Source: Candidatus Hydrogenedentota bacterium (GTDB lineage: Bacteria; Hydrogenedentota; Hydrogenedentia; Hydrogenedentales; JAGMZX01). Taken from it: 44,916 nucleotides of DNA. Position numbers and translations under genes: made by a program. The notes under the pieces are model-generated. The model had not been told where the DNA came from, ran no database searches, and saw nothing but the letters and a program-made list of their open reading frames with translations. Within the stretch, counting starts at the first letter, position 1. Each line of letters starts with the position of its first letter. The stretch spans positions 24,768 to 69,683 of the forward strand of contig JAGMZX010000011.1 in assembly GCA_018005585.1 (NCBI GenBank). Reading direction: 5' to 3'. This document shows positions 6,476-41,978 of the stretch, piece after piece.

Positions 6476-6562
6476 TTCTTGGTTTGCGCGCGGCAAAGTC
6501 GCGGGGAAATGTAAACCTTTTACAGATGCGGCACGTTTTCACGAATGAAGCAGGAAGGACAG

Positions 6563-7147
6563 ATGGACCACTCGGCCCAAGGCGATAGCGAATTGGCCCT
6601 CGCCTTGAAGGCCGGGGACCGGGAAGCTTTCGAGGAGCTGGTCCGGCGTCATCAGGGCCGCGTGTACGCGGTAGCGTACCGTTTGACGGGCAACCGCGAG
6701 GACGCGCTGGATGTGGCGCAGGACGCCTTCTTGAAGGCGTTCCGGAAAATTGGTTATTGGCGGCCCATCGGCGGTTTTCTGCCGTGGCTGTTGCGGTTGA
6801 CGCGCAATCAGGCTATTGACCACCTGCGACGCCGGGAACGGCGCCGGCATGAGCCGCTCGAGGAGGCGTCGCGCGCGCAGCGCGACGGAATGACCGCGGA
6901 AACCGCGCCGGTGACGACGGATGCAGCGGTGCGCGCGCGGGAGATTGACCAGCGTGTGCGCGAGGCGCTGGTGCGGTTGTCGCCGTCGCAGAGTACGGTG
7001 TTCATCCTGCGGCATTATGAAGGTCTGGCGCTGGCGGAGATTGCCGAGCAATTGGGCTGCACGGTCGGCAGCGTCAAGGTGCATTTGTTTCGTGCGCTGA
7101 AGAAATTGCGCAAGGAACTGGCGGATTTTCAGGGTCCGGAACAATAG
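6563..7147 (+). CDS. ECF-type RNA polymerase sigma factor
   Basis: 194 residues from the ATG at 6563, preceded by AGGA seven bases upstream. An in-frame ATG at 6545 lacks a ribosome site. Region 2 is clear: FEELVRRHQGRVYAVAYRLTG then DALDVAQDAFLKAF, with WLLRLTRNQAIDHLRRR in 2.4. Region 4 follows at about 140-190 (LSPSQSTVFILRHYEGLALAEIAEQLG, then VGSVKVHLFRALKKLR). No region 1.1 or 3 is present, as expected for group IV sigma factors. The linker between regions 2 and 4 is Ala/Thr-rich. The anti-sigma gene starts 22 bases after the stop, so the two are almost certainly co-transcribed. Targets are unknown; the T2SS locus immediately downstream is an obvious candidate. Confidence 0.93.
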   Translation: MDHSAQGDSELALALKAGDREAFEELVRRHQGRVYAVAYRLTGNREDALDVAQDAFLKAFRKIGYWRPIGGFLPWLLRLTRNQAIDHLRRRERRRHEPLEEASRAQRDGMTAETAPVTTDAAVRAREIDQRVREALVRLSPSQSTVFILRHYEGLALAEIAEQLGCTVGSVKVHLFRALKKLRKELADFQGPEQ

Positions 7148-7169
7148 AGAAAGATAGGAGCCGCGCAAT

Positions 7170-8309
7170 ATGGGAATGCGTGACGCGGGTCTATGGTCCG
7201 CGATGCGGGGGCTGGCAGGGGGGTGCCGGCGCGTACGCCCCTTGCTTGTGGCCTCACTCTACGAGCCGCTCGGCGAGGACGAAGAGCAAGCCTTGCGGCA
7301 ACACCTGGAAAAGTGCGGGCTCTGTCGCGCGGAATGGGCCGGTATGCGGCGGACCGTTGCAGCCATCCCGCGGGAACCCGCGCGGTTGAGCGGCGACATG
7401 GCTCCGGCTCTGCTGGCCCGCGCCGCCGAGTGCTCCAACCGCGCACCGGTCAGGCGTTTGCTGCCCTACGGCGCAGCCGCGACGGCCATCGTCGCGGCGC
7501 TGCTCTTCGTCGTGGCGGGGCCGTTCGCGTCTTCCCCGGTCTCGGAGCGGCTGGCGACTGCGCCAATGCCCGCCGTTGCCGTGGAACCGCCGGCCGCGAC
7601 CGTCTCCGGCGGTGCGACAGACACGGAGTTGCCTGCCGGGGCAATCGCCGATTCACCGGTTGAGGAAGCGGTGTGCGAAGCGGAGCAGCTTGTCGAGAAG
7701 CACGCCTATGCGGATGCGATGCAGCTGCTGCAGGAAAGCATGGCGGCCCATCCGGGCGACCCCGCATCCGGTGTGGCGCAGGCCCGCCTCGCCGAGATCG
7801 AGTTTTGCCATCTGCGCCGTTATCCGCGGGCTTTTGACGCCTATGTGAGACTCCGAAACCTGTTTCCTGAGACGTTCAAGTCGAGTCCCGAGAGCATAGA
7901 CCGCTTCGATTTGCTGGTCGAAGGCTGGCAGGAAAACTTCGAGGCGCTGTACGCATTGGATGCCGCGCGCGGGAATGGCCCCGCAGGCTTTGCGGACTTG
8001 GAATCCGTGGTCGCGCAGTATCCCGGCAAACTTGTGGCCGGGGTGGCGCTGGACGAAATGAGGCGGATTGTCGACGGTCCGGGCGCGGAGGGCGACATGC
8101 CGGTGACGGCGGCGCTCGAGCGCGTCCGGGCCCGTTGCGCGAATCCCGTCGCCGTTGCGCAGGTTAACCTGCGCCTGGGCGACGCGTATTCGCAGGATGC
8201 GCGCAATTTGCCGCGCGCGCGGGAGATGTACCAGGACGTGTCGCGGAGCGCGCATCCGGTGCTGGCGCCAATGGCGGACGCCGCGCTGGCGCGGCTGGCG
8301 AATCCGTAA
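7170..8309 (+). CDS. Zinc-finger anti-sigma factor with extracytoplasmic TPR-like domain
   Basis: 379 residues, with AGGAG about 10 bases ahead of the ATG. The N-terminus has the ZAS zinc-binding pattern of anti-sigma factors: Cys19, then His45-x3-Cys49-x2-Cys52 (HLEKCGLC). One membrane span lies at about 99-118 (ATAIVAALLFVVAG). After an Ala/Pro-rich linker, residues 165-379 are helical with tetratricopeptide-like spacing (ASGVAQARLAEIEF, ALDEMRRIV, VNLRLGDAYSQDARNLPRAREMY, PMADAALARLA). The topology implies cytoplasmic sequestration of the adjacent sigma factor and a periplasmic TPR domain that could sense envelope proteins or cell-wall state. The large sensory region is longer than in many anti-sigma factors. 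The signal is not known. Confidence 0.88.
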   Translation: MGMRDAGLWSAMRGLAGGCRRVRPLLVASLYEPLGEDEEQALRQHLEKCGLCRAEWAGMRRTVAAIPREPARLSGDMAPALLARAAECSNRAPVRRLLPYGAAATAIVAALLFVVAGPFASSPVSERLATAPMPAVAVEPPAATVSGGATDTELPAGAIADSPVEEAVCEAEQLVEKHAYADAMQLLQESMAAHPGDPASGVAQARLAEIEFCHLRRYPRAFDAYVRLRNLFPETFKSSPESIDRFDLLVEGWQENFEALYALDAARGNGPAGFADLESVVAQYPGKLVAGVALDEMRRIVDGPGAEGDMPVTAALERVRARCANPVAVAQVNLRLGDAYSQDARNLPRAREMYQDVSRSAHPVLAPMADAALARLANP

Positions 8310-8468: not shown

Positions 8469-8534
8469 AAGTTGCGGCTGAACGGCCCAACGGGCCGCGC
8501 GGCCGGATTACGCACCGCGCAGAGGAACCACGGC

Positions 8535-10289
8535 GTGCCCGACCTGAAATCGTTTGAGCGATTCCTCGTGTCCAGCGGCGTCGTCGCGGAAGACCGTCTC
8601 GAACGCGCGCGGGGCGAGGCGCGCAAGCGGGGTGCTACGCTGACCGAGGTGGTCCAGCAACTAGGCTTTGCCACAGCTGAGCAGGTGTATCAGGCGCTCG
8701 CTTCCTTTTGCGAACTGCGGTACGTTGTCCCGTCGAAGATGACCATTCCGGAAGAGGTATCGCGAAAAGTACCCGCCCGGTTTGCGACCCACTACGGCTT
8801 TGTACCCATTGCGGAGAGCAATGGCGCGCTCGTCGTTGCCGTAAGCGACCCGCTGAACGCGCAGCTGCTCGATGATATCCGGCTCGTCTTGAAGCGGCGC
8901 ATCGAAGCGACGGTGGCAACGCCCGAGGAGATCGACCGCACGACGAAGGTGCTCTACGGCGTCGGCGCGGACACGATGGAGAAGATCCTCATCAGCGAGG
9001 AATCGCAGGGGCTCGTCGTCAATCTGGGCGAAACCAGCATGAGCGCGGACCTCGGCGACGAGAACATCGATGCGTCCATCATCAAGTTCACGAACGAACT
9101 CATCCTCGAGGCCATTAATTCCGATTGCACCGACATTCACATCGAGCCGTTTGAAGACCAGTTGCGCGTCCGGTTCCGCATCGACGGCATCCTGCATCAG
9201 GTGCCTACGCCGCCGTCCATTCGCGGCTTTCACGCGGCCATTGTCTCGCGCATCAAGATCATGGCCAACCTCAACATCGCGGAAAAACGCCTCCCGCAGG
9301 ACGGCAAGATACTCGCCCGGTTCGGCGACAGCCAATACGACCTGCGCGTGTCGATCCTGCCGACGCCACACGGGGAGACGGTAAACATCCGCATTCTGAG
9401 CCGGGCGTCGATGTTCCTGACGCTGGACCAATTGGGCTTCCTGCCCGAGGACTTGACGAAGTTCGAGTCCTTTATCACGAAACCGCACGGGATTATCCTC
9501 GTGACAGGCCCCACGGGCAGCGGCAAAACGACGACGCTATACGCGGCGCTGAGCAAACTGAACAACCTGGACCGCAAAATCATCACGATTGAAGACCCCA
9601 TCGAATATCAGTTGCGCGGAGTGACCCAGATGCAGGTGTTGCCGCGTATCGGCTTCGATTTCGGCATGGGCCTGCGCTCCATGCTGCGTCACGACCCCGA
9701 TATCATGCTCGTGGGCGAAATCCGCGACTATGAGACGGCTGAGATGGCGATCCGGTCGAGCCTGACGGGCCACCTGGTGCTCAGCACGCTGCACACGAAC
9801 GACGCGGCCGGGGCCGTGACCCGCCTCACTGACATGGAGGTTGAGCCGTTCCTGATCGCGAGCACGATGATTGCCTCGATGGCGCAGCGTCTTGTGCGGC
9901 GCGTGTGCCGCAATTGCAGCGCGCCCTGCGCGCCGAACCCGCAGGTGCTGCGCGAGGAATTCGGCGTTACACCCGAGCAGGTGCAGCGCGGCCAGTTCGT
10001 GAAAGGCGAGGGCTGCGACGCATGCCGGCACACGGGTTACCGCGGGCGTATCGCCATCTACGAGATGTTGCCGTTTACCAATGAAATCAAGGAGCTTACC
10101 GCGCGCCGGAGTTCATCGATCGAGGTCAAGCGCAAGGCGCTGGAACAGGGCATGAAGACGCTGCGCATGTCCGGGTGGCGCCGTGTTTACGAAGGCTTGA
10201 GCACCATCGAAGAGGTGTTGCGCGTGACGGCAGACGCGGAGACGATGGGCGCGATCATCGAGACGGGCGATGCCGCAATTCCAGTATGA
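8535..10289 (+). CDS. gspE: Type II secretion / type IV pilus assembly ATPase (GspE/PilB family)
   Basis: 584 residues from GTG at 8535, chosen for AGAGGAA eight bases upstream. The frame is open back to a TTG at 8472, next to a -10-like TATAAT. The N-terminal MshEN-type domain spans about 10-150. The ATPase core carries Walker A GPTGSGKTT (about 325), an Asp box before it (DIHIEPFEDQLRVRFRIDG), Walker B LVGEIRD and the His box STLHTND. A zinc-binding tetracysteine follows: CRNCSAPC, then CDAC. This hexameric ATPase powers pseudopilus or pilus growth on the cytoplasmic face of the inner membrane. The following pseudopilins and secretin favour the T2SS name. gspF starts 20 bases before the stop. 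Confidence 0.95.
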   Translation: MPDLKSFERFLVSSGVVAEDRLERARGEARKRGATLTEVVQQLGFATAEQVYQALASFCELRYVVPSKMTIPEEVSRKVPARFATHYGFVPIAESNGALVVAVSDPLNAQLLDDIRLVLKRRIEATVATPEEIDRTTKVLYGVGADTMEKILISEESQGLVVNLGETSMSADLGDENIDASIIKFTNELILEAINSDCTDIHIEPFEDQLRVRFRIDGILHQVPTPPSIRGFHAAIVSRIKIMANLNIAEKRLPQDGKILARFGDSQYDLRVSILPTPHGETVNIRILSRASMFLTLDQLGFLPEDLTKFESFITKPHGIILVTGPTGSGKTTTLYAALSKLNNLDRKIITIEDPIEYQLRGVTQMQVLPRIGFDFGMGLRSMLRHDPDIMLVGEIRDYETAEMAIRSSLTGHLVLSTLHTNDAAGAVTRLTDMEVEPFLIASTMIASMAQRLVRRVCRNCSAPCAPNPQVLREEFGVTPEQVQRGQFVKGEGCDACRHTGYRGRIAIYEMLPFTNEIKELTARRSSSIEVKRKALEQGMKTLRMSGWRRVYEGLSTIEEVLRVTADAETMGAIIETGDAAIPV

Positions 10290-11484
10290 GGTCAAGAAGG
10301 GCCCGGGCGAATCCGCCACGGGCATACTCGAAGCGGAAAACCAGCGCGCCGCCGCGGCACGTCTCCGCGATATGGGGTATTTCCCTATTCGCGTCGTCGA
10401 GTACACGGGCGAGGAAGAAAAGAAGGACGTGCTCCGACAGGCGCTCGTCCGCATACGCCTGAGAGACCGCAATGTCTTCTTCCGCCAGCTGGCCAACCTC
10501 ATCGAGTCCGGCATGCCCATCACCCGCGCGCTCCGCACCCTGGTCGAGCAGGCGGAAAACCCGAAGATGTCGAAGCTCATCGATACGCTCCGCGACGACG
10601 TGCAGAAGGGCAGCAGTTTCGCCGAAGCGATGGAGAGACATCCGGAGGTCTTTTCCGCGGTGCAATGCAATCTGGTGCGCGCGGGCGAGACGGGCGGCAT
10701 GCTCGAGGAAGTACTCTGGCGCCTGGTTGCCTTCGGCGAACAACAGGAGGAACTGCGGGGCAAGGCGCTTAGCGCGCTGGTGTATCCGGCCTTCCTGCTG
10801 CTCATCGGCTCGATAGCGGTTTTCATTCTGATTTCTTTCGTATTTCCCCGGTTTATCGAGGTTTTCAAGGACTTCAACGCCGACCTGCCCATGCCCACGA
10901 AGATCGTCATGGCAGTCTGCGGGTTCATGGGTTCGTACTGGTGGGCCGTGCTGATCGGGGTGGGTCTGGTCATTGCCGGGCTCGTGTACTATCTGCGTAC
11001 GGAGGTGGGCCGCCGTCACAGGGATGCGTTGCTCTTGCGCATTCCAGTTGTCCGTACGGTAGTCCAGAAATACGAGATGGCCCGGTTTGCGCGGACGCTC
11101 GGAACCCTGCTCGAGAATGGCGTGCCGGTGCTGCGATCGCTGCGGACGACCGCCGACACGATGGGAAATGCGGTGATCCGCGACGAGGTTGCTTCTATCC
11201 TCGAGGGGGTGACCGACGGGCGGAGCATGAGCGAGAGCATGACGCAGACGCCGCATTTCCCGCCGCTGGTGGTCAGCATGTTCATGATAGGCGAGGAAAG
11301 CGGCCGCATCGGCGACGTGACCAAGCGGCTGGCGGATGCCTACGACCTGGAGGTGGACCGTGCGGTGAAGGCACTGACGGCCTTGTTTGAGCCGCTGTTG
11401 ATCGTGTTCATGGGCGCCATTATCGGTTTTCTCGTGATTGCCATGTTGTTGCCGATGTTGACGTTGAGCGCGAACGTCGGGTAG
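10270..11484 (+). CDS. gspF: Type II secretion inner-membrane platform protein (GspF/PilC family)
   Basis: 404 residues, starting inside the 3' end of gspE, so translation is probably coupled. The N-terminal extension is typical (QFQYEVKKG, IDT-like GILEAENQRAAAARLRDMGY). Two T2SSF domains follow (about 70-190 and 270-395), each with the family pattern FFRQLANLIESGMPITRAL and FARTLGTLLENGVPVLRSL. Membrane segments lie at about 170-195 (LLLIGSIAVFILISFVF), 215-240 and 370-400 (LLIVFMGAIIGFLVIAMLLPML). It forms the inner-membrane platform that couples GspE to the pseudopilus. Length and order match the family. Confidence 0.95.
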   Translation: MPQFQYEVKKGPGESATGILEAENQRAAAARLRDMGYFPIRVVEYTGEEEKKDVLRQALVRIRLRDRNVFFRQLANLIESGMPITRALRTLVEQAENPKMSKLIDTLRDDVQKGSSFAEAMERHPEVFSAVQCNLVRAGETGGMLEEVLWRLVAFGEQQEELRGKALSALVYPAFLLLIGSIAVFILISFVFPRFIEVFKDFNADLPMPTKIVMAVCGFMGSYWWAVLIGVGLVIAGLVYYLRTEVGRRHRDALLLRIPVVRTVVQKYEMARFARTLGTLLENGVPVLRSLRTTADTMGNAVIRDEVASILEGVTDGRSMSESMTQTPHFPPLVVSMFMIGEESGRIGDVTKRLADAYDLEVDRAVKALTALFEPLLIVFMGAIIGFLVIAMLLPMLTLSANVG

Positions 11485-11565
11485 GCGGCGTCCCCAAAAC
11501 GGGCCAGTTTGTCGTATTATAAAGGAGGGGAAGGCGAAGGCCTTTCCCTGCATCTGGAGGTTGCC

Positions 11566-11952
11566 ATGGATAACAGAGGTTTCACGCTTATCGAGCTGAT
11601 CCTGGTCGTGGTCATTATCGGTATCCTGGCCGGCGCGGTCGTGCCGATTTTCGGCGGACGTTCGACGGAAGCGCGGATCAACCGGGCCCGGTCGGACATC
11701 AGTTCCTATCTCGGGTTCATTTCCGCGTATGAGATCGACAATGGGAAATACCCGCAGCGTCTTGAAGACCTGGTCTCCGGGAATCGCAAGTACGTCCGCG
11801 AGTTGAACAATGACCCGTGGGGCAATCCGTACATTTACACGCCGCCTTCCGGCGCCACCAGTGATGACTTCGATGTTTTCTCCGCTGGTCCGGACGGCCA
11901 GCCGGGCACCGAGGACGATGTGACTCTCAACACGGAAGCGGCGACCCGCTGA
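11566..11952 (+). CDS. gspG: Major pseudopilin GspG
   Basis: 128 residues from the ATG at 11566 (GGAGG five bases upstream); an in-frame upstream start at 11509 would bury the prepilin leader. The leader MDNRG precedes the cleavage point G|FTLIEL, with Glu at +5 and a hydrophobic stalk (ILVVVIIGILAGAVVPIF). The C-terminal part is classic GspG: INRARSDISSY, GKYPQRLEDL, NDPWGNPYIY and the acidic calcium-site tail SAGPDGQPGTEDDV. It is the main subunit of the periplasmic pseudopilus and must be cleaved by a prepilin peptidase, which is not in this window. An AT-rich TATTATAAAG at 11515 may give it an extra promoter. Confidence 0.95.
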   Translation: MDNRGFTLIELILVVVIIGILAGAVVPIFGGRSTEARINRARSDISSYLGFISAYEIDNGKYPQRLEDLVSGNRKYVRELNNDPWGNPYIYTPPSGATSDDFDVFSAGPDGQPGTEDDVTLNTEAATR

Positions 11953-11963
11953 GCACCAAGAAC

Positions 11964-12521
11964 ATGACCGTCACGTTCCGAAACGTCCCCAAACCGCAGG
12001 CTGGGGGCGCGCCGGCGGGGAATGGGTTCACGCTGCTCGAACTCGTGGTGGTGTTGGCGTTGATTGCCATTCTCACCGGCATGGTCGTGCCGGTCTACGG
12101 CGGTTCAATGGCTTCCATGCGCATGCGCAGCGCGCAGAGCGATTTTATCTCTCTGATTGAATTTGTGCAGGAGCGCGCCATAACCGATGCCCGGGAGTAC
12201 CGCCTGTACATTGACAAGGAGGAAAACACGTTCTGGGTCATGTACATGACGGGTGTGGAGGAAGGCGAAAAGGTGTTCACGGAAGAAACGCGCGAATATG
12301 GGCGTCTGCGCGAGTTTCCCGAACAACTGACCGTCGACCGCGTGAAGGCGCGGAAAGACCGGGAACGGAGCGCTTACTTCATTGCCTGTTATCCGAACGG
12401 GGCATGTGATATCGCGCGGGTCGACCTGCTTGACGCGCGAAACCGGCGCCAGCGCACCACGATAGAAACCACCGGCGTCGTCGGCAAGCTCGAGGTCGAG
12501 ACGCCGCAGACGCGGAGGTAG
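11964..12521 (+). CDS. gspH: Minor pseudopilin, GspH-like
   Basis: 185 residues. The prepilin signal is intact: a long leader of 21 residues ends in NG, then FTLLELVVVLALIAILTGMVVPVY with Glu at +5. The rest (MRMRSAQSDFISLIEFVQERAI, then beta-rich sequence with YRLYIDKEENTFWVMY) fits GspH/FimT minor pseudopilins. There is no strong ribosome site before the ATG at 11964; it lies 11 bases after gspG, so re-initiation is possible. Position between gspG and gspI supports the GspH name, which otherwise rests on general features. Confidence 0.85.
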   Translation: MTVTFRNVPKPQAGGAPAGNGFTLLELVVVLALIAILTGMVVPVYGGSMASMRMRSAQSDFISLIEFVQERAITDAREYRLYIDKEENTFWVMYMTGVEEGEKVFTEETREYGRLREFPEQLTVDRVKARKDRERSAYFIACYPNGACDIARVDLLDARNRRQRTTIETTGVVGKLEVETPQTRR

Positions 12522-12527
12522 CGCACC

Positions 12528-13001
12528 GTGCCGCGCCGCGCCGGGTATATCCTCTTCGAGACTGTCGTGGCCATGGGTCTGTTGAGCATCAGCCTGGTGG
12601 TCGTATACAACGGCATGAATCAGGGGCTCTTCATGCGCGCCCGGGCCCAGGACTTCACCACGGCCAAGTTTCTGCTTGAGAAAGTCATCGCGGAGAAGGA
12701 ATTGCAGTTGGAGATGCAGCCCGGCTCGGGCGAGGGGCAGTTCGAGGGCGACAACGAGCGATTCCGCTGCCGCTGGGAGATCACAAAGGTGCCCGTGCCG
12801 GCGCCGCCGCTGCCGCCCGCCCTGACCGAAGAAGAACGGGAACGGTTCTATAAAATGTTCAAGAAATACATGGGCCGCATTGCGGTGACGGTCCTGTGGT
12901 CCCGCCGCGGCTTTGATTACGAGATTGCGGGCGAGACCCTGATTCCACCGGAGCGTCTCTGGCTGCCGGAAGGCGAACGCGATGATGTCCAGATGCCGTA
13001 A
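12528..13001 (+). CDS. gspI: Minor pseudopilin, GspI-like
   Basis: 157 residues from GTG at 12528, with GGAGG ten bases upstream. The short leader PRRAG precedes YILFETVVAMGLLSISLVVVY; Tyr at +1 replaces the usual Phe/Met, while Glu at +5 is kept. Residues 30-60 are helical (AKFLLEKVIAEKELQLE), and a Pro-rich segment follows near 90. GspI usually initiates the pseudopilus tip with GspJ and GspK. Its 3' end overlaps gspJ by 20 bases. Divergent in its C-terminal half; the assignment leans on locus order. Confidence 0.82.
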   Translation: MPRRAGYILFETVVAMGLLSISLVVVYNGMNQGLFMRARAQDFTTAKFLLEKVIAEKELQLEMQPGSGEGQFEGDNERFRCRWEITKVPVPAPPLPPALTEEERERFYKMFKKYMGRIAVTVLWSRRGFDYEIAGETLIPPERLWLPEGERDDVQMP

Positions 13002-13713
13002 GGACAACGGCTTCACACTGGCCGAACTGCTTGTCGCGGCGACGCTGCTCAGCCTCGTCATGGCTTCCGTGTATACGCTCTTCAGCTCGACCATGCGCAC
13101 CTGGCGGCGTTCCGAGGGCGCCTTTGACATGCACCAGGTTGCGCGCACGGCCCTCGCGGTCTTCGAGCGTGAAGTAGAGAATCTGATGGATGAGGCGGGC
13201 TACCTGTTCACCGGCGAGGATGATGAAGTGACGATGTTCGTGGTGGCGGAACCGATGGACGTCGAGGAGGCCGAAGGCCCGCACCTGATGCGTGTGCGCT
13301 ATCGATTTGACCGCACCGGCGAAGAACTGGTCCGGGAGGAAGCCCTGGTCGAGATGGCGCTGCCGAACCGCCCGCCGGACGGCAAACCGGTCGAACCGGG
13401 CAAAATCAAGCTGAAGCGCAAACGCGAGTTTGTCATTGCGACGCATGTGCGCGACTTCGAACTGAGATACTACTGGATCCCCGCGCCGGACCAGCGCTAT
13501 GAAAACGAACCGCCCCAGCCCACGGAGCATTTGGTTGTCGACAGCCACGAGGAGGGCTGGGGGCTGCCGCAGGCCATCGAAGCTCGCCTGACGCTGACCG
13601 ACCCCGAGAATCCGGACCGCGAGATATCCTTTGACGTCTTGCGCACGCTGCACACGCGCACGTTTTATTATCCGCTTCGCGATCTCGAGAAGATGCTGGG
13701 GGATTTGATATGA
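12982..13713 (+). CDS. gspJ: Minor pseudopilin, GspJ-like
   Basis: 243 residues. The leader MMSRCRKDNG is followed by FTLAELLVAATLLSLVMASVYTLF with Glu at +5. The downstream pattern (AFDMHQVARTALAVFEREVENL) matches GspJ, whose stalk runs into a beta-rich head; FELRYYWIP and a late IEARLTLTDPEN segment fit this. It starts inside gspI and its stop overlaps the gspK start as ATGA. It is expected to join GspI and GspK in the tip complex. Confidence 0.88.
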   Translation: MMSRCRKDNGFTLAELLVAATLLSLVMASVYTLFSSTMRTWRRSEGAFDMHQVARTALAVFEREVENLMDEAGYLFTGEDDEVTMFVVAEPMDVEEAEGPHLMRVRYRFDRTGEELVREEALVEMALPNRPPDGKPVEPGKIKLKRKREFVIATHVRDFELRYYWIPAPDQRYENEPPQPTEHLVVDSHEEGWGLPQAIEARLTLTDPENPDREISFDVLRTLHTRTFYYPLRDLEKMLGDLI

Positions 13714-14648
13714 CGAGGCGGGAAGACGGATTCGTGCTGCTGGTCGTGCTGTGGGTGTTGGCCGTGCTTACGGTCGTGACGGTGGGCTTCGGGCGGCGCT
13801 CGCTGATGGACCAGCGCGCCGCGGCCTATGCGCTCGACCAGACGCAGGCCATGCTGATGGCCCGCGGCGCCGTGTACCGGGGGATCCTGCTCCTGCGCAA
13901 CAAGGCGGTCACGGACATGGCGGAGATGGACCACCCGCCGGTGACGCACCTGGGCCAGGAATGGGCCAAGCCTATGGACCTGTTCTCCGAAGGCATATTC
14001 GAGGGCAAGGAAGGCGTCGAAGGCGACACGTGCGCGTTTGTCATTGAGGACGAACAGGCCAAGATGAATCTGAACAGCATTCCCTTCGAGGTGCTGGAGG
14101 AGGTGGAAGCGCTGGACCGCTCCGTGCTGCGGCGAATCAAGGCGCGGCGCACCGAGGGCGAACAGGATGGCGAGGGCCCGGCGCCGTTTCACGCACCGGA
14201 GGAGTTGCGCTACATGCGCGGCGTTGATTATGAAGAGTGGTACGGCGACCGCAAAGAAACGGGCCTGCGCAACCTGTTTACCACGGTGGGCACCGAACGG
14301 GTTAATATCAACACGGCGCGCCGCGAGGTGCTCGAGTGCATCCCGGACTGTGATGATCAGGCGATCAACGCCGTGTTAGGCTATCGCGCCGGACCCGACG
14401 GAGAGGTTGGCACGCAAGACGACGTGGGATTCCTGGACTGGAACGATTTTGTCGAGCGTACGGGCATTTCGGGGGAATCCCTGACTGCCCTGAAACGGTA
14501 CGGCGACTTGTATTCCACGTATTACACGGTTACCGGCATCGCGACGAAACGAAATGGCCAGGTGCGGGCAAGCGTGACGGCTACCGTAGTGGTCATGGAA
14601 GGACAGGCCAGCATTCTGGATTGGCGGGAGAGGCCCCTTGGCGCGTAA
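13710..14648 (+). CDS. gspK: Pseudopilus tip protein GspK
   Basis: 312 residues. The prepilin-like start REDG|FVLLVVLWVLAVLTVV lacks Glu at +5, which is the hallmark of GspK and lets it cap the pseudopilus. The body has the GspK pattern: AYALDQTQAMLMARGAVYRG, an acidic region (FVIEDEQAKMNLNSI) and a helix-hairpin-helix-like INTARREVLECIPDCDD. The C-terminus (YSTYYTVTGIATKRNGQVRASVTATV) is also typical. It overlaps gspJ by four bases and gspL by eleven. Confidence 0.93.
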   Translation: MTRREDGFVLLVVLWVLAVLTVVTVGFGRRSLMDQRAAAYALDQTQAMLMARGAVYRGILLLRNKAVTDMAEMDHPPVTHLGQEWAKPMDLFSEGIFEGKEGVEGDTCAFVIEDEQAKMNLNSIPFEVLEEVEALDRSVLRRIKARRTEGEQDGEGPAPFHAPEELRYMRGVDYEEWYGDRKETGLRNLFTTVGTERVNINTARREVLECIPDCDDQAINAVLGYRAGPDGEVGTQDDVGFLDWNDFVERTGISGESLTALKRYGDLYSTYYTVTGIATKRNGQVRASVTATVVVMEGQASILDWRERPLGA

Positions 14649-16134
14649 CAGTAATCACATCAGTATTGTCCAGTGCGACGAGCGGTTGATCTCGCGCATG
14701 CGCGTGCTGTCGAAGCCGGGCAAGCTCGAGATTCTCGCCTTTGACCAGGAACACGGCGCGTGGTCGGCGCAGGATGGCACGCTCGAGGCTGCGTTGCGCG
14801 ATTTTTCGGGCCGGTTCCACCTGGCGGATGATGCCGTCGTCACGATCCTGCCGCGTCACGATATCACGACCCGCATTCTGGTGCTGCCCAGCGACAAGCC
14901 GGAAGAAATAGCGAGCATGATCCGGTTCAGCGCGGAAGAATACGTTCCCTATACCGCTGAAGAACTCATGCTCAGCCAATGCGTGCTTCGTCTGCTGCCC
15001 ACGGGCGAAGCGCGCGTGCTGGCCGCGTTTGCGCACAGGGACGTGGTGGAAGGGCACATGCGTCTGCTCGCCGGAGCGGGCATCGTGCCCGAGCATGTGT
15101 ACTTGAGCACGGCATGCCTCGCCACGGCCGTGGCAGAGGCCAGGCCGGACGCTTCGGGCGATTTCGCGCTGGTAAACCTGGCCTCCGGCGGGCTGGAAGC
15201 GCTCACGTTTGACCGGGACGGGCATTTGATGTTTGGCCGCGGCGTCGCGTCCGGTCAGCAATGGCATGCGCCCGATGGCGAAGTGGCGGGTATCTTCGAG
15301 GAACTGAGCGTGGAACTGCGGGCGACCTTGTCCGCGTACCGCCGGGAAGCGCCAGATAGCTACGAGGTCGAGCGTGTTTATCTGGCCGCCGATGCGGCGT
15401 TCGTCGAGACGCTGGCCCAAGGGTTGGAGACGGAGACGGCGGTTCAATGCCGGCCTGCGGATTTTCTTCCTGCTCTTGTCGGCAGCGGTGCCCAACATCT
15501 TGCTGCTCCTGCATTGTCGGCGCTGGGCGCCGCGCTGCTCGCGCAGGGCCGGGGCGAGGTGCTTATCGACCTCGTTCCGGAATCCGTGAAGGAAGACCAG
15601 CGCATTCGCGTGGTGAAGCGTCAGGCGCTTAAGGCGGGTTTCCTTGCCACGCTGGTTCTCGTGGCGGTTGGGCTGTGGTTCTATCAGCAGGTGCGTCAGC
15701 GGGAGGCGTACCGCGTCGAGCTCGAGACGCGCCTGCAAGGTCTCGCGGCGCGCGCGGGCGGCGTCGTGGAGAAGCGCGAGCAACTGCGGATCATCCGTCG
15801 CGAAGTGCGGCCTTCCGGTTCCGTGCTCCAATACCTGGCGAACGTTTGCCGCGCCGCGCCGGACGGAGGACTGAACCTTACCGAGTTCCGTTTTGACCAC
15901 GAGGATGGGATCGAGGTCAAGGGGCGAGCGGAGTCGCTGGACCTGATCAACGGGTTTGGCCAGTCGTTGCGCGAACTCGGGAAGACGACGGGATTGGAGC
16001 AGTTTCTCGGTGCGACGCGCATGTACGAAAACGACAATATCCCGGAACAGGACAAGCGGATTTGGGAGTACCATTACACCATTCCGTTCGAGGAGAAAGA
16101 GGCTGAGAATGCAGATGCTTCGCTCGGCAAGTGA
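14638..16134 (+). CDS. gspL: GspL/PilM-like cytoplasmic actin-fold protein with membrane anchor
   Basis: 498 residues from TTG at 14638, with GGGAGAGG just upstream and within the end of gspK. Residues 1-300 resemble the actin-like cytoplasmic domain of GspL/PilM (VLPSDKPEEIASMIRFSAEEYVPY, FALVNLASGGLEALTF). One membrane span lies at about 335-352 (GFLATLVLVAVGLWFYQQ), then a coiled segment and a ferredoxin-like periplasmic domain (about 390-480). It should dock GspE to the membrane and pair with the next protein. The gene is more PilM-PilN-like than enterobacterial GspL. The last 26 bases overlap gspM. Confidence 0.85.
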   Translation: MARNSNHISIVQCDERLISRMRVLSKPGKLEILAFDQEHGAWSAQDGTLEAALRDFSGRFHLADDAVVTILPRHDITTRILVLPSDKPEEIASMIRFSAEEYVPYTAEELMLSQCVLRLLPTGEARVLAAFAHRDVVEGHMRLLAGAGIVPEHVYLSTACLATAVAEARPDASGDFALVNLASGGLEALTFDRDGHLMFGRGVASGQQWHAPDGEVAGIFEELSVELRATLSAYRREAPDSYEVERVYLAADAAFVETLAQGLETETAVQCRPADFLPALVGSGAQHLAAPALSALGAALLAQGRGEVLIDLVPESVKEDQRIRVVKRQALKAGFLATLVLVAVGLWFYQQVRQREAYRVELETRLQGLAARAGGVVEKREQLRIIRREVRPSGSVLQYLANVCRAAPDGGLNLTEFRFDHEDGIEVKGRAESLDLINGFGQSLRELGKTTGLEQFLGATRMYENDNIPEQDKRIWEYHYTIPFEEKEAENADASLGK

Positions 16135-17140
16135 TCTCTGGCGCAAGCTTTCGCCGCGGGAACAAAGGTTGGCTGGTCTCGTGTTCGCGCTGGCCGTTGC
16201 GCTTCTTGCCGCGGTTGGACTGCGCCGCGGCTGGGATCGCATCGAGGAATTGGACAGCTCGATTATGCTGCTTGAGGACGCGATAGTGGAGAATACCCAC
16301 CAGGTCGCGCGCCGCGAGGCCGTCGAGGCGGAATATCGCGAGGTTTCCGCGCAGCATTCGAGTGCATGGTCGGCCGCGGAGATCCTGGACCGCCTGCGCA
16401 ACGAAATTTACCGGCTCGCGCACAACGTGCCATCGCCGTTGAATGCGGAAGGCGTTGCTGACCGCGTCGAAAACGATTCCGGACTCCTGGTCAATCTGCC
16501 GGAATTGGGGGAGGGCACGCTGGAAGAGAGCGAGGAAGGCTTTCGCGAATACCACATTGGCGTTAAGGTGTCCAACGTGCCTTTGCACGCATTGATCAGC
16601 TACCTCGAGCGCCTCCAGGCCAGCCCACAGTCCCTGCGCATCGATGGCCTCAACATGAAGCGCAACTTCCTGGACGACCGGGTTACGGCGGATATCGATA
16701 TCACGCGGATTATTGTGGACCGGACCGAACCGCCCTGGACCTATGCCGCGCAGCAGCCGGAAGGCTGGGTCAGCAAGGGCTGCCGCATCGCCGCGGCCTC
16801 CCTGCCCGCCTTGGGCGGCAAGCCAGCCGTGCAGGTGTCGTCGGGAGGGCCGCGGGGCGCGTGCTATTTCCCTGTGGAACTGCAGGGCGGCGCCTACGAA
16901 CTGCAGTTCGAGGCGTCTGCGAAAGGCGCCGTCATCTTACGCATTTACGACGAGGACGCGGGCAAGAACCTCGAAGGCGAACTTACATTGAACGGAGACG
17001 GCGTCCCCTATATCTACCGGATTCAATTCGCCCTGCCCGACCAGGGCGGACTGACGAAAATGCGAGTGCCGCACCTGACGCTTGAGGAAGCGGACAGTGA
17101 AGTGCTCGTCAGCAGTGTGGCATACCGCAGGATGACATGA
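16109..17140 (+). CDS. gspM: GspM/PilO-like protein with additional C-terminal beta-rich domain
   Basis: 343 residues from ATG at 16109, chosen for AGAGG seven bases upstream; the frame is open to 15956 but runs inside gspL. The N-terminus has GspM form: SDLWRKLSPREQRLAGLVFALAVALLAAVGLRRG (one membrane span at about 22-40), then a coiled coil (45-80) and a ferredoxin-like domain to about 200 (LHALISYLERLQASPQSLRIDGLNM). Residues about 206-343 are extra: WTYAAQQPEGWVSKGCRIAAASLPALGG, then alternating beta strands ending LVSSVAYRRM. This looks like a carbohydrate-binding-module or galactose-binding-like sandwich. Standard GspM stops near 160-200 residues. The fold of the extra part is inference. 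Confidence 0.8.
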   Translation: MQMLRSASDLWRKLSPREQRLAGLVFALAVALLAAVGLRRGWDRIEELDSSIMLLEDAIVENTHQVARREAVEAEYREVSAQHSSAWSAAEILDRLRNEIYRLAHNVPSPLNAEGVADRVENDSGLLVNLPELGEGTLEESEEGFREYHIGVKVSNVPLHALISYLERLQASPQSLRIDGLNMKRNFLDDRVTADIDITRIIVDRTEPPWTYAAQQPEGWVSKGCRIAAASLPALGGKPAVQVSSGGPRGACYFPVELQGGAYELQFEASAKGAVILRIYDEDAGKNLEGELTLNGDGVPYIYRIQFALPDQGGLTKMRVPHLTLEEADSEVLVSSVAYRRMT

Positions 17141-17143
17141 GCT

Positions 17144-17638
17144 ATGGAACGGCTTAGCATGTATATTGGCATTGGCGTGTTGGTTGTGGCCGGCGCGCTC
17201 TTGGCGCTGGGGCTGGTTCATGATGTCAAGCAGGAAGACCGCGCCCTTCTCGAACAGCGGCTCGCGGCGGTGCCCAAGCACGCTGCTGCGGAGGAGACGA
17301 TGGACTGGCCTTGGGCGGAATGGGAGCAGAATATCACCGCGAATGCCAAACTATGGAGCGGTCTGGTGCCGCCCCCGCCCCCGCCTGCGCCGCCGCCGCC
17401 GCCGCCGCCCCAGCGGCCCGATATGGCCGCGATGCTCAAAGATGTGTATCCTACGCGGCGTGGCGTAGGCAATAAGGTGCGCATCGTTACCCCTCAGAAC
17501 CCGCGAGGGGATTACTACAGCGTCGGCGATGCGATAAACGGTTGCACCATCGAGCGCGTGGAAAAGACGGAGGTCGTGTTTACGCTGGTCTGGCCCGCCA
17601 AGAATGAGGTACTCACGTACTCTCTGCCGCGACAGTAA
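17144..17638 (+). CDS. gspC: GspC/PilP-like inner-membrane clamp protein
   Basis: 164 residues. An N-terminal membrane span (about 6-25, MYIGIGVLVVAGALLALGLV) is followed by a helical stretch, a Pro-rich linker of about 18 prolines (76-92) and a small beta domain (about 110-160: GDYYSVGDAINGCTIERVEKTEVVFTL). This order is that of GspC, whose HR domain contacts the secretin N0 domain; the GD-x-I-x-G-x-x-I-x-x-V pattern is also that of PilP. No PDZ domain is present. It follows gspM by three bases and precedes gspD. Functional name rests on architecture and position. Confidence 0.8.
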   Translation: MERLSMYIGIGVLVVAGALLALGLVHDVKQEDRALLEQRLAAVPKHAAAEETMDWPWAEWEQNITANAKLWSGLVPPPPPPAPPPPPPPQRPDMAAMLKDVYPTRRGVGNKVRIVTPQNPRGDYYSVGDAINGCTIERVEKTEVVFTLVWPAKNEVLTYSLPRQ

Positions 17639-17727: not shown

Positions 17728-17838
17728 ATGAACTGCGCTGTGGGAAAGGACTGTTTCGAACCCGCGTGCTTGTGTGGCGCGGGTCGTGTGCGCTATATAA
17801 TGTGGTGTAGCAAGCCAAGACCACACGAAGTGGGGTGA
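17728..17838 (+). CDS. Possible 36-residue cysteine-rich peptide ahead of gspD
   Basis: Open frame ATG-TGA of 36 codons with AAGGAG eleven bases upstream and an end two bases before the gspD ATG. It contains five cysteines (3, 9, 14, 16, 27). It spans the candidate gspD -10 sequence, so either it is non-coding leader DNA or the promoter call is wrong. No homologue is recognised. Confidence 0.2.
   Translation: MNCAVGKDCFEPACLCGAGRVRYIMWCSKPRPHEVG
17796..17801 (+). promoter_or_regulatory. Candidate -10 element (TATAAT) for gspD
   Basis: Perfect TATAAT within GCTATATAATGTGG, 40 bases before the gspD ATG, in the only sizeable gap (202 bases) of the secretion locus. No good -35 is visible; TTGTGT at 17770 is 20 bases away. 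An own promoter would let the secretin be made separately from the inner-membrane genes. Confidence 0.45.
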
Positions 17839-17840
17839 CT

Positions 17841-20800
17841 ATGAGCAGAAAATCTCCGGACGCCGCCGGCGCGAGCAGCCAATCAGCATGCAAGTCTGTG
17901 CATAAGGCGCGATGGCTCGCGGCCGTCATTCTGCTTTTCCTCGCTCCGGCGACCGCCCAGTTCTTTCCGGAAGACGCCTACGGGCAACAGACGCCCGACA
18001 CGCCGCGTCCTCGACCGTCGTTGCCCTCGTCTACGCGGCCAATCCGCTTGCAGCCGGGCGGCTATGACCAGAGCGGCCAATATGGGGATTCCCAGCCAAA
18101 TGAGCCGGGGCGATCGAGAACGGGCCGCTTCGGAGACCGGAGAAGCGACAGGGACAGGGATACGGAGCAGCAGCAAGGAACGGGTTCCCAGCAGGGACAG
18201 CAGCCCTCCGAACAACCGCAGCAGGAGCAGCCCCAGGAGCAGAAGCCTCCCGGTCCGCGGGAGGCTGGTGGCCGCGAGGGGGGCGGTGGGCCAACGGTGA
18301 TTGGGCCTGGCGCGGCCGGGCGCGGCGGCGCAGCGGAGGGAGCAGGCGCGCCGGGTCTTCCCGGAGCCCCGGGGGCGGGCGCCGGGGCGGGGCCGGGCGG
18401 CTTGGGCGCTGCGGGCGGGCTGCCACGCGGACCGGCGGCGGGGGTGAACGTCATCAGCACGACCAGTTTTGAACCAGCGTTTGAACATGAGGTGGAGTAC
18501 CCGGATGTCCCCGACGCAGGAGCCGAGAACTTGATTACGGAAGAAGGCCCCATGACGGTCCTTGAGTTCCTCTCGCTCATCCACCTCTCTACGGAATGGA
18601 ACATCATTTCCACGGAGAAGGCCAATGCGGTTCAATTAAGCTTCTATCTGGTTGATACCACGCCGAAACAGGCGCTGAAAGTCCTGGAAAAACACGACAT
18701 CTACTACGAATGGGACGAGCAGAACAAGTACCTCTATGTGATGACGAAAGAGGAGTATCTCACCGAGAAATACGCGAAGGTCTCCCCAACGCCTACGGAA
18801 TTTAAGGTCGTTCACGCGGATGTCACCTATGCGGAATCCATGCTTTCTTCGCTCTTGTCTCAAGCCGGGCGCATAGTCACCGACCAGCGGACGAACCTCG
18901 TTTATGTCTGGGATACGGAAGACAACCTGGAGCAGATGAAGAAAGCGTTTGAGGAATTGGATGTTCCTCTCGAAAAACGGGAGTTTCTGGCGCGCTATGC
19001 TGACCTTGCCGACGTGGAGGCGGTGGTCACATCGCTCTTGTCCGCGAATGGCAGCTTTGTCTCCGACCCGCGGACGGCGCAGTTCTTCGTGTGGGACAGC
19101 CCCGCCGTGCTCGACCGCGTCGCGGAAGCGGTAGCGCGGCTGGATGTCCCGATCGAGCCGGTTACCTACGAGGTCAAGCATGTAAGCGCCGAAGACCTCG
19201 TTGACAGTCTGGAAGTTCTGCTTTCCGAACGGGGGCTGATCCAGGTGGACCCGCGGTATAACACGATCGTCGTCACGGATTTGCAGGAGCGGCAAGCGCG
19301 CATTGCCTCCTTGATCGAGACGCTGGACCGCGAACTCGAGACGCGCACTTGGGTGATTCAGTACGCGGATATCGAGTTCATTGCGGACCAAATCGAGACG
19401 TATATACCCAGCGAAATGGGCGAAATCATGGTGAACGACATGGTGCACCAGGTCACCGTCACCGGTCTGCCGGAGCGTCTCGACAAGATCGACGCATTGA
19501 TAAAGGTCTGGGACATCAAGCGGCAGCAGGTCATGATCGAAGCGTTCCTGGTGGACGTGGGCGAGTCCGTGGCCCGCGAATTCAACATCCGCTGGTCGTA
19601 TTTTGACAACGCGAACGCCGGACCCGTGGCGATCAACAGCCCGACGGGCGGGTTCCCGGGGGTCAATGCCGACGTGATCACTTACGGGCAGTTGCCCTAT
19701 GCCGTGCCCCTGTATGGCAACCTGCAACTGGACGCGGAGGGCAACATCACGCGGCCGCTGCTGACCGATATCGCCGGAAACACGATCATCGACCACTATC
19801 GCGGCAACCAGATTGGCGCCGCGCTGAACTATCTGGACCGCACGACCGACCTGTCCATCCTGGCTGCGCCGCGGGTGACTGTCCAGGATGGCGAGGAAGC
19901 CATATTCGAGAACGCGGAGCGCGTGCCCTATGCCTCCGCTACATCTTCATACGGCGGCTACTACGGTGGGTATGGCGGCGCGTACAGCCGGGTCGAGTTC
20001 ATCGATGTTGGCATTATCTTGCGCGTAAAGCCGCAAATAACCGAACTGGACGACATTCTGCTGGACATAGCGGCGGAAGACAGTTCGGCTGAGCTTGTCG
20101 AGATCGAGTCGTATTCGACCGGCACGGAGGACACGGTCTCGTCACGGAAAGCGCCGCAAGTGAAGGCGCGCAATGTGGAAACCCAGTTGCGCATTCACAG
20201 CGGGGACACGGTGGTCCTGGGCGGGCTGCGCCAGAGCAGCGCCGGCGAGAACATCAACCGCGTGCCTATTCTGGGCGACATCCCCGTCGTGGGGCGGTTG
20301 TTCAAGTATCCGTCGAAATCTTCCGACACGAACACGCTCATGATTTTCCTCACGCCGACGATCGTCGACGAACACACATTCCCCGAGGCGAGCATGCTGA
20401 CGGACGCGGAAGAGGACATTGCCGCGCGGCACCGGCATAACCGGAAGGATTTCTACGAGCGGATACGCGACCGGATTACCCATGGCGAACATGAGGTCAG
20501 CGTGTCTATCGGGCAGACCGGCTGCGTCCACTCAGAAGGCCAGCCCGTGACAATGGATGAGCTGCGAAAAGCGCTCGAGAGCGTGACAGACCGGGAGGAT
20601 ATCACGCTCGTCTTGCGCCGTCACCCGCGAGCGCCTTCCAAGGTCGTGGCGGAAGTCGTGGAAATCGCCATGGAGTTGGACATTAAAGTGGACTTTGACG
20701 ATGCAATGATGCCGCTCGTGCCTACGAATCACAGCGCGGAAGCCGCGCGGGCGGCCGCGGAATCCGCGTCCGCGGAGACGGTGGTTGCGGCGCCTGCGGC

Positions 20801-20873
20801 CGCCGCGGAAACGCCAGAAGCGGAGGTGGCATCCACCGGGGCACTGGCCGCGGAGGCAACGGACGGGTCCTGA
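17841..20873 (+). CDS. gspD: Type II secretion outer-membrane secretin with C-terminal ExbD/TolR-like domain
   Basis: 1010 residues from ATG at 17841 (GGGGTGA just upstream; a GTG at 17835 is less likely). A signal peptide follows a long basic n-region (about 20-43, WLAAVILLFLAPATAQ). Residues about 50-205 are Gln/Pro then Gly/Ala-rich low complexity. An STN/N0 domain lies at about 225-310, then four N1-type repeats (about 315-565). The secretin core follows: QVMIEAFLVDV, AAPRVTVQDGEEA, VGIILRVKPQI, SGDTVVLGGL, VPILGDIPVVGRLF and IFLTPTIV. Beyond the usual S region, residues about 885-955 read like the periplasmic ExbD/TolR domain: VSVSI, EGQPVTMDELRKAL, DITLVLRRHPRAP, VVEIAMELDIKVDF. An Ala/Glu-rich tail ends the protein. 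Secretins form the outer-membrane gate; the added domain may bind peptidoglycan, as TolR does. Confidence 0.93.
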   Translation: MSRKSPDAAGASSQSACKSVHKARWLAAVILLFLAPATAQFFPEDAYGQQTPDTPRPRPSLPSSTRPIRLQPGGYDQSGQYGDSQPNEPGRSRTGRFGDRRSDRDRDTEQQQGTGSQQGQQPSEQPQQEQPQEQKPPGPREAGGREGGGGPTVIGPGAAGRGGAAEGAGAPGLPGAPGAGAGAGPGGLGAAGGLPRGPAAGVNVISTTSFEPAFEHEVEYPDVPDAGAENLITEEGPMTVLEFLSLIHLSTEWNIISTEKANAVQLSFYLVDTTPKQALKVLEKHDIYYEWDEQNKYLYVMTKEEYLTEKYAKVSPTPTEFKVVHADVTYAESMLSSLLSQAGRIVTDQRTNLVYVWDTEDNLEQMKKAFEELDVPLEKREFLARYADLADVEAVVTSLLSANGSFVSDPRTAQFFVWDSPAVLDRVAEAVARLDVPIEPVTYEVKHVSAEDLVDSLEVLLSERGLIQVDPRYNTIVVTDLQERQARIASLIETLDRELETRTWVIQYADIEFIADQIETYIPSEMGEIMVNDMVHQVTVTGLPERLDKIDALIKVWDIKRQQVMIEAFLVDVGESVAREFNIRWSYFDNANAGPVAINSPTGGFPGVNADVITYGQLPYAVPLYGNLQLDAEGNITRPLLTDIAGNTIIDHYRGNQIGAALNYLDRTTDLSILAAPRVTVQDGEEAIFENAERVPYASATSSYGGYYGGYGGAYSRVEFIDVGIILRVKPQITELDDILLDIAAEDSSAELVEIESYSTGTEDTVSSRKAPQVKARNVETQLRIHSGDTVVLGGLRQSSAGENINRVPILGDIPVVGRLFKYPSKSSDTNTLMIFLTPTIVDEHTFPEASMLTDAEEDIAARHRHNRKDFYERIRDRITHGEHEVSVSIGQTGCVHSEGQPVTMDELRKALESVTDREDITLVLRRHPRAPSKVVAEVVEIAMELDIKVDFDDAMMPLVPTNHSAEAARAAAESASAETVVAAPAAAAETPEAEVASTGALAAEATDGS

Positions 20874-21259: not shown

Positions 21260-21469
21260 GTTGTCACCTCCGGGAGACTGCGTGATTCCGGTTATTCCGC
21301 CGGTTATGGAACCCCTTGCCGCGCCTTGGGATCACCAAGCGCCGGGTGGTATACTCGGCGGCTAGAGAGAAGGAATCTTAGCATACCGTCACATGCAGTT
21401 CAAGGGCGGACGGCGTGCTTGATTTCGGCCTTTCCAGGTATTCTCATGAGTCCGGAATGTGGCATGCCG
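21260..21469. other. Divergent region between rpmB and the lipoprotein gene
   Basis: 210 bases. It holds the rpmB ribosome site, two direct copies of CCGGTTAT starting at 21288 and 21300 (12-base period), and the promoter at 21326-21355 for the rightward genes. No clear rpmB promoter was recognised. Confidence 0.4.
21326..21355 (+). promoter_or_regulatory. Promoter for the lipoprotein-rlmN pair
   Basis: TTGGGA (21326-21331), an 18-base spacer and TATACT (21350-21355). The predicted start near 21362 leaves a leader of about 100 bases before the lipoprotein ATG. Confidence 0.5.
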
Positions 21470-22309
21470 ATGAAACGCATTTTATTCCTATTCACGTTAG
21501 TTGCAGCCGCAGCGGGGTGTCAGCGTCTGGGCCGGGAACTGGCCCCGGCGCCATTGCCGCCCGGTGCGCCGAGCCTCGCGGCTATCCTGGACGGCCTCGC
21601 CGCGAATGATGCGGCCATACAATCGTTCCGGGGTCCCTGCTCGGTAACACTCGAGTCGCCCGACCTCGCGGGGAAGCAGGTGCTGCATAAGAGCAGCGTC
21701 TATTTCCGGCGGCCCGAGTCGCTGCACGTCGTGGGCCGGAAATATGGCAGCACGGTGATGCGCCTGACTTCGGTAGGCCGGGAATTTCTTATCGAATTCC
21801 CCTCGGAAAAGAAATATTACTACCGGTTGGAGGGGGAACGGCTGGAAACCGTCGAATTCAGCGTTTCGCCCTCGGATATCGCGCGCGAAATGTTCTTTCC
21901 GGAGCCGTGGGATACTCTGGACCTCGAACGGGTGCGCCTTGTGGCCTATGAAGAACGGGACCAGACGGCGCGGCTTGAGTTGCTCGAAGCGGACGGCAAA
22001 CACGTGCGGCGGGTGGTGACCGTGCAGGGTCCGCCGTGGGTCATTGTCCGCAGCGAGCACGTGGACCGGCGCGGCAGGACGCTCTCGGTGACAACGCTGC
22101 GAGATTACCGGCAATTTGACGGCGTGAACCTTCCCGCGACGGTCGAAGCGGTTTTCCCGCTGGAAAAGACGTCCATGACGCTGGCGTTCCGGGAACTGAA
22201 ACCGAATACGGATATTGAAGACCAGTATTTCGATATCAATGCCCGCGCGCGCGAACTCGGTATCGTGCTGGACAGAACCTCGGCCGCGCCACAGCAAGGA
22301 ACGTACTGA
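21470..22309 (+). CDS. Outer-membrane-type lipoprotein of unknown function (LolA/LolB-like fold possible)
   Basis: 279 residues from the ATG at 21470; in-frame ATGs at 21464 and 21446 are also possible, none with a strong ribosome site. The signal is a lipoprotein type: MKRILFLFTLVAAAAG|C with Cys at about 18. The mature part is beta-rich with features seen in lipoprotein-carrier-like families: FRGPCSVTLESPDLAGKQVLHKSSVYFRRPESL, then FLIEFPSEKKYYY, and late YRQFDGVNLPATVEAVFP. This pattern of a surface-lining, half-barrel domain is reminiscent of LolA/LolB or DUF4292 proteins. A role in lipoprotein or lipid transfer is inference. rlmN starts 54 bases downstream. Confidence 0.75.
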   Translation: MKRILFLFTLVAAAAGCQRLGRELAPAPLPPGAPSLAAILDGLAANDAAIQSFRGPCSVTLESPDLAGKQVLHKSSVYFRRPESLHVVGRKYGSTVMRLTSVGREFLIEFPSEKKYYYRLEGERLETVEFSVSPSDIAREMFFPEPWDTLDLERVRLVAYEERDQTARLELLEADGKHVRRVVTVQGPPWVIVRSEHVDRRGRTLSVTTLRDYRQFDGVNLPATVEAVFPLEKTSMTLAFRELKPNTDIEDQYFDINARARELGIVLDRTSAAPQQGTY

Positions 22310-39347: not shown

Positions 39348-39575
39348 AATGGCAGGGCCGGATGATAACGTTCAAGATGTCGACGGAATCAGCGAACTGG
39401 TGCGTCGATATCGTGAGTACCTGAGATGACTTGGAAGCGGCGCGCGGCAGGAGTCTCCGGGCGCGGCAAGCCCGTGAATTCCATCTTCAGCCGCGCCACA
39501 CCGCCGGGGAAGAGGAGACAGGCCGGGCCCGGCTCGCGACGCGCGAGTTCGTATTTTAGATATGAGGAGTATTGC

Positions 39576-41861: not shown

Positions 41862-41978
41862 CTGGCCGTTTTGTGCGTCAGGGGTGGTGGAAGACGCAGG
41901 GGCCGGGGCAACGTCGTGCTCCGCGGAACGAGTCGGGAACGCCGCCGGATAACCGGTCACGGTTTGTGGGAGGCAGTT

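Follow-up and report, generated by a model that had tools for sequence, protein, structure and literature searches.

A C-terminal ExbD/TolR-like periplasmic core in the type II secretion secretin of Hydrogenedentota

Why should a secretin, a pore of the outer membrane, end in a domain that resembles the periplasmic part of the motor proteins ExbD and TolR? The question is raised by one open reading frame in the window, i.e. the whole stretch of 44,916 nucleotides of DNA from Candidatus Hydrogenedentota, a little-known phylum, that was analysed here. A sequence-only reading had placed such a domain at about residues 885-955, after a complete secretin core. Profiles and predicted fold bear this out, with the core of the domain at residues 885-953. 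The reading frame starts with an ATG at 17841 and stops at 20873, and an in-frame GTG is present at 17835. Its layout is as follows.

17841-20873, forward strand: gspD, secretin with C-terminal ExbD/TolR-like domain (ORF of 1010 aa; Pfam Secretin and Secretin_N)
17841-17957, forward strand: probable signal peptide (hydrophobic residues 23-43, hydropathy maximum at residue 25)
17988-18455, forward strand: low-complexity linker rich in Gly, Pro and Gln, residues 50-205 (composition)
18513-19565, forward strand: putative N0-like domain and four Secretin_N stretches, about residues 225-575 (PF03958, E 1.2e-36)
19833-20369, forward strand: complete secretin barrel domain, residues 665-843 (PF00263, E 2.8e-41)
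20376-20480, forward strand: two post-barrel helices at the S-domain position, residues 846-880 (AlphaFold, tail helices 3-23 and 26-35)
20493-20699, forward strand: ExbD/TolR-like periplasmic core, residues 885-953 (family-wide Pfam, hhalign, AlphaFold/Foldseek)
20616-20636, forward strand: R-x-H-P-x-A-P loop, residues 926-932 (lowest entropy of the core among 64 windows)
20730-20870, forward strand: disordered C-terminal extension rich in Ala and Glu, residues 964-1010 (composition; beyond all domain matches)

Within the tail, the helices span residues 848-880, the ExbD-like core residues 885-953, and disorder prevails past about residue 963, the borders after 953 being approximate. The post-barrel helices have low confidence in a replicate AlphaFold model made from the tail of a divergent lineage (G012).

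The secretin is the GspD of a type II secretion system (T2SS). This assignment is based on the operon and not on the score of the curated GspD model: the best NCBIfam models are those of PilQ and GspD, which are equally near, and both stay below their cut-offs (PilQ, 252.2 versus 284.35 bits; GspD, TIGR02517, 248.2 versus 351.35 bits). According to Pfam and NCBIfam, gspD is the final gene of a gspEFG(HIJ)KLMCD operon, the other genes of which are listed below.

8472-10289, forward strand: gspE, ATPase (TIGR02533, E 6.5e-177)
10270-11484, forward strand: gspF (TIGR02120, E 2.5e-118)
11509-13713, forward strand: pseudopilin genes, gspG followed by three genes with N-methylation motif at the gspH/I/J positions (PF08334, PF07963)
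13710-14648, forward strand: gspK (NF037980, E 1e-25)
14638-16134, forward strand: gspL (TIGR01709, E 8.9e-10; PilM_2)
15956-17140, forward strand: gspM, the true start probably internal to the ORF (T2SSM, E 9e-5)
17144-17638, forward strand: GspC-like protein with transmembrane helix, polyproline and HR-like domain (position and layout only)

The GspC-like protein has no GspC match in Pfam or NCBIfam. In relatives its gene is kept beside gspD, and the operon neighbourhood is likewise conserved. In most families the protein has a long conserved polyproline after the motif W-x-x-L-[VI]-P, a layout similar to that of TonB; the polyproline is absent in the f4 lineage. Downstream of gspD lie a gene for a LolA-like lipoprotein (21446-22309) and then rlmN, a pair that is conserved in several families; the lipoprotein could be a pilotin or have a role in targeting. 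Directly upstream of gspE, genes for an ECF sigma factor and for an anti-sigma factor of the zinc-finger type are found (6545-8309), which may regulate the T2SS. Glycosidases of the families GH2 and GH32 and a clostripain-family peptidase are encoded near the operon (3127-5406, 39426-41714 and 41871-43559), and it is possible that they are substrates of the system.

The identity of the tail does not become evident from the single protein. The sequence-only reading had named PF02472 as the profile that the segment should match, and here the window protein alone falls short: it reaches 14.2-14.9 bits (E 0.028-0.048, about residues 885-945), below the gathering threshold of 25.4 bits. The expected match was obtained, however, with the orthologs. 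Tails were drawn from 30 loci of relatives belonging to at least ten families, and 28 of them were aligned (alignment A1). PF02472 matches 17 of these 28 tails with a best E of 1.6e-6, every other Pfam family matching at most one, and in the genome scan the ortholog of G002 exceeds the gathering score with 26.6 bits.

A comparison of profiles points in the same direction. Aligned by hhalign with a profile of 25 true ExbD proteins from the same phylum, the tail gave a probability of 96.7% and an E of 3.9e-10. The score against the periplasmic part of ExbD was 58.6, while none of 200 column-shuffled ExbD profiles scored above 20.1, and none of the other domains of the secretin, which served as a further control, above 19.1. 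Outside the phylum, the tail profile mostly retrieves free-standing ExbD-sized proteins, with E down to 2e-9 and over the same core columns. A sequence search of the PDB with this profile returned no ExbD; its matches were all weak and concerned designed repeat proteins, at the 'IGQ-G' turn.

The fold comparison proposed in the sequence-only reading was also favourable. The AlphaFold model of the window tail has a mean pLDDT of 81, the core blocks of the G012 tail reach 85-93, and the order of strands and helices is identical in the two models. In a Foldseek search of the PDB with the window tail, the top five matches were all the periplasmic domain of E. coli ExbD (E 4.9e-5 to 2.1e-4; TM-score 0.61-0.79 over the target), and the same domain accounted for the five best matches of the G012 model. 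TolR ranked 15th with the window model and sixth with the G012 model.

Since the family-wide Pfam matches, the profile-profile comparison and the predicted folds agree, the ExbD/TolR identity is firm, albeit entirely computational. The fused segment is thus almost certainly the ExbD/TolR periplasmic core, located after the usual post-barrel helices of the Hydrogenedentota T2SS GspD. An accidental resemblance, or an origin of the tail from a duplicated N domain of the secretin, is hardly credible. The marginal Pfam score of the single window sequence would fit such an explanation, but the hhalign score lies far above those of the shuffled profiles, both predicted folds are ExbD-like and true ExbDs from other phyla are retrieved. 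The duplication was rejected on account of the low scores of the secretin's own domains.

The core has some features that distinguish it from ExbD. Hydropathy reveals no transmembrane helix in the tail. The N-terminal swap strand is absent as well: the hhalign alignment begins at ExbD position 50, after this strand, and both AlphaFold models place helices where it would be. The last strand is present in the model (residues 949-952), its register being approximate. By entropy, R-x-H-P-x-A-P is the most conserved seven-residue stretch of the core (rank 1 of 64 windows). It corresponds to the ExbD pattern R-x-D-x-x-A, which reads R-x-H-x-x-A in the secretin tail, the near-invariant aspartate being replaced by histidine. 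In ExbD the equivalent segment is the strand-helix loop where two protomers touch, i.e. the dimer interface (PMC10907165), and the dimer-contact region of TolR is likewise found at this loop (PMC4646322). Saturation of most synonymous sites limits the use of dN/dS; in pairs that still yield a ratio, it was about 0.09 in the core versus 0.02 in the barrel for the pair L031/L032, and 0.43 versus 0.08 for the pair from the window's own genus. Judged from these sequences, the core looks constrained, but more loosely than the barrel.

The fusion is a phylum-wide feature and is tied to the T2SS. The search for the same fusion in relatives, as suggested by the sequence-only reading, detected it in 58 of 68 Hydrogenedentota genomes and in 36 of the 38 genomes of good quality. 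The tail usually occurs once per genome and in ORFs of secretin size; a few genomes add weak matches of ExbD size, and G051 gives fragments only. Ten genomes have no match to the tail profile. Six of them (G044, G050, G067, G064, G065 and G061) also have no close GspL, and there the T2SS has apparently been lost or is missing from the assembly. In the four others, which have GspL (G030, G040, G017 and G023), the contig stops before or inside gspD. An intact gspD of this T2SS lacking the domain was not found among the 68 genomes. The genus g33 (G044, G050 and G067) comprises genomes that are 90-93% complete and possess neither a close GspL nor a tailed secretin, an apparent loss of the T2SS. 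Two adjacent gspD copies, each with an ExbD-like tail, were observed at L073 and G039:C27:8384-11362.

Within the genomes covered, ordinary secretins lack the tail, as had been supposed. The window's genome has a single match to the tail profile; its other secretins have no tail, and the paralog L112 ends soon after the barrel. In about 590 genomes of other phyla we saw no secretin with such a tail among the ORFs considered, which were all but one of 678 aa in G658 and two giant ones of about 4750 aa, and viral contigs with the tail were not found either. The search for related loci used a closer subset of tails (A3), the alignment A1 being too diverse. Two long ORFs outside the phylum were rejected as tailed secretins: the protein from G251 is not a secretin, and that from G201, which is sugar-epimerase-like, seems to match by chance. 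The former (L109:1070-2728) is an exported protein of 553 aa that ends in an ExbD-like domain and is followed by a similar protein in which no such domain was detected. Another arrangement was observed within Hydrogenedentota, where a protein of 1099 aa (L111:367-3663, G002 contig 208) has N-terminal ExbD-like stretches, without the ExbD membrane helix ahead of them, and then many ankyrin repeats; in this protein the ExbD core apparently serves as a free module. The titles and abstracts retrieved by searches of the open-access literature contain no description of a secretin-ExbD/TolR fusion, although an earlier annotation of the architecture may exist.

What the domain does can be approached by analogy. 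In TolR, strand swapping masks peptidoglycan binding, and the protein binds once both ends are removed (PMC4646322); ExbD binds peptidoglycan transiently, apparently upon loosening of the dimer (PMC10771500). Having neither membrane helix nor N-terminal swap strand, the secretin tail resembles the truncated, peptidoglycan-binding TolR. The ExbD/TolR core would thus have left the motor, and without the closing strand it may be permanently open and available to peptidoglycan or to a peptide. Because the tail follows the barrel where the S-domain sits (PMC6532946), the 15 subunits of the secretin would present up to 15 copies around the outer-membrane ring, facing the periplasm. These might form pairs through the R-x-H-P-x-A-P loop and fix the ring to peptidoglycan, which would replace the scaffolding that is done elsewhere by GspB or a pilotin. 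A precedent for a secretin held to the wall is provided by GspB/OutB (PMC9239104). We tentatively regard such a passive anchoring to the wall as the most likely function, ahead of a docking site for a peptide and of a purely structural role in the ring, though it may well be wrong. Several points speak against it. The exchange of aspartate for histidine in the loop implies a changed binding surface, and the last strand is kept although the peptidoglycan-binding form of TolR lacks both swapped ends. In addition, a pilotin may be present in the form of the LolA-like lipoprotein encoded downstream, and the core changes more rapidly in evolution than the barrel does. That wall anchoring might replace the pilotin, as the sequence-only reading had proposed, is plausible. 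A pilotin of the AspS type was found in none of 30 relatives by a search that recovered the E. coli control; GspB above the cut-off was likewise found in none of them, but this search also found nothing in the control genomes, which makes this absence weak evidence.

It is rather unlikely, yet worth considering, that the paired domains take up a short strand of a partner, as ExbD does with the D-box of TonB, and thereby couple the ring to it. The partner could be the polyproline-containing GspC-like protein, a TonB/TolA-like protein or one of the secretin's own flexible ends. The top structural matches are indeed complexes of ExbD with TonB or the D-box, and the edge strand of ExbD that recruits the D-box, its last one (residues 130-134; PMC10907165), has a counterpart in the tail, the register of which is uncertain. 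However, Foldseek matched the monomer, and the complexes rank high only since the crystals contain the ExbD core. The adjoining GspC-like protein resembles TonB in its transmembrane helix and polyproline, but no clear D-box motif was seen in the GspC-like proteins, and those of the f4 lineage have no polyproline while the secretins there keep the domain. A strict link between domain and polyproline was rejected for this reason. Alternatively, the domain could pack on its neighbours in the ring and stabilise the 15-mer without any outside ligand. Its location directly after the S-domain position would fit, since in GspD rings of known structure the S-domain touches the adjacent subunits (PMC6532946), and so would the conserved loop, which is the dimer interface in ExbD. 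A ring of 15 subunits does not allow even pairing, though, and other GspDs are stable without the domain, assembled ExeD even without its S-domain (PMC6532946). This purely structural explanation also appears unlikely to us.

Very improbable is a drive of the secretin by ExbB/ExbD or TolQ/TolR through the tail, which the sequence-only reading had considered besides wall anchoring. The domain is homologous to the periplasmic part of these motors, and ExbD is encoded three times and ExbB four times in the window's genome. These genes are on other contigs, however, with no motor gene near the operon, and the T2SS is already equipped with an ATPase of its own, GspE. Lacking the transmembrane helix, the tail has no counterpart of the segment that ExbD/TolR needs for its work in the motor. 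Coupling is therefore unlikely on account of the missing membrane part and of the missing ExbB gene nearby, and the absent N-terminal swap strand argues against it as well. We also consider it very unlikely that the ExbD-like domains, by binding ExbD or a TonB/TolA-like protein, link the T2SS pore to the proton-driven Ton/Tol machinery. If this were true, assembly or opening of the pore would be coupled to the energy of the inner membrane across the whole phylum.

The fusion adds to a T2SS secretin an ExbD/TolR core through which the pore may be attached to the cell wall or a partner protein. It also indicates that this core is usable without the proton motor, so that its binding can more easily be told from the action of the motor, and as a domain of about 80 residues it has an experimentally tractable size.

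Compared with known GspDs (PulD, EpsD, ExeD), the Hydrogenedentota protein has the same Secretin and Secretin_N domains, signal peptide, gsp operon and post-barrel helices. However, known GspDs end at the S-domain, whereas this one continues with an ExbD/TolR core and then a disordered extension. With ExbD/TolR (PF02472; PDB 8P9R, 8VGC, 8PEK and 5BY4) the tail shares the profile and, as predicted here, the fold, including the Gly turn, the central strand, R-x-x-x-x-A, the second helix and the last strand. It differs from them by the missing membrane helix and swap strand, the histidine in place of the loop aspartate, the fusion to a secretin and the absence of exbB or tolQ nearby. The N-terminal transmembrane helix of the ExbD/TolR stator, with its aspartate in the proton path, is absent in the tail, and the hhalign alignment covers the periplasmic part only. 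How secretins are held and targeted to the outer membrane varies across bacteria, including pilotins, GspAB and AMIN domains. GspB/OutB, the scaffold between GspD and peptidoglycan, might share with the tail the role of holding the secretin to the wall, but GspB is a separate inner-membrane protein, whereas the Hydrogenedentota module lies inside GspD. A built-in wall-binding module is known from PilQ secretins with AMIN domains. These are N-terminal, however, and unrelated to the ExbD-like tail, and Pfam detects no AMIN domain in the window secretin. The Hydrogenedentota tail is also built into the secretin but has a different origin, and almost all T2SS-bearing members of the phylum retain it.
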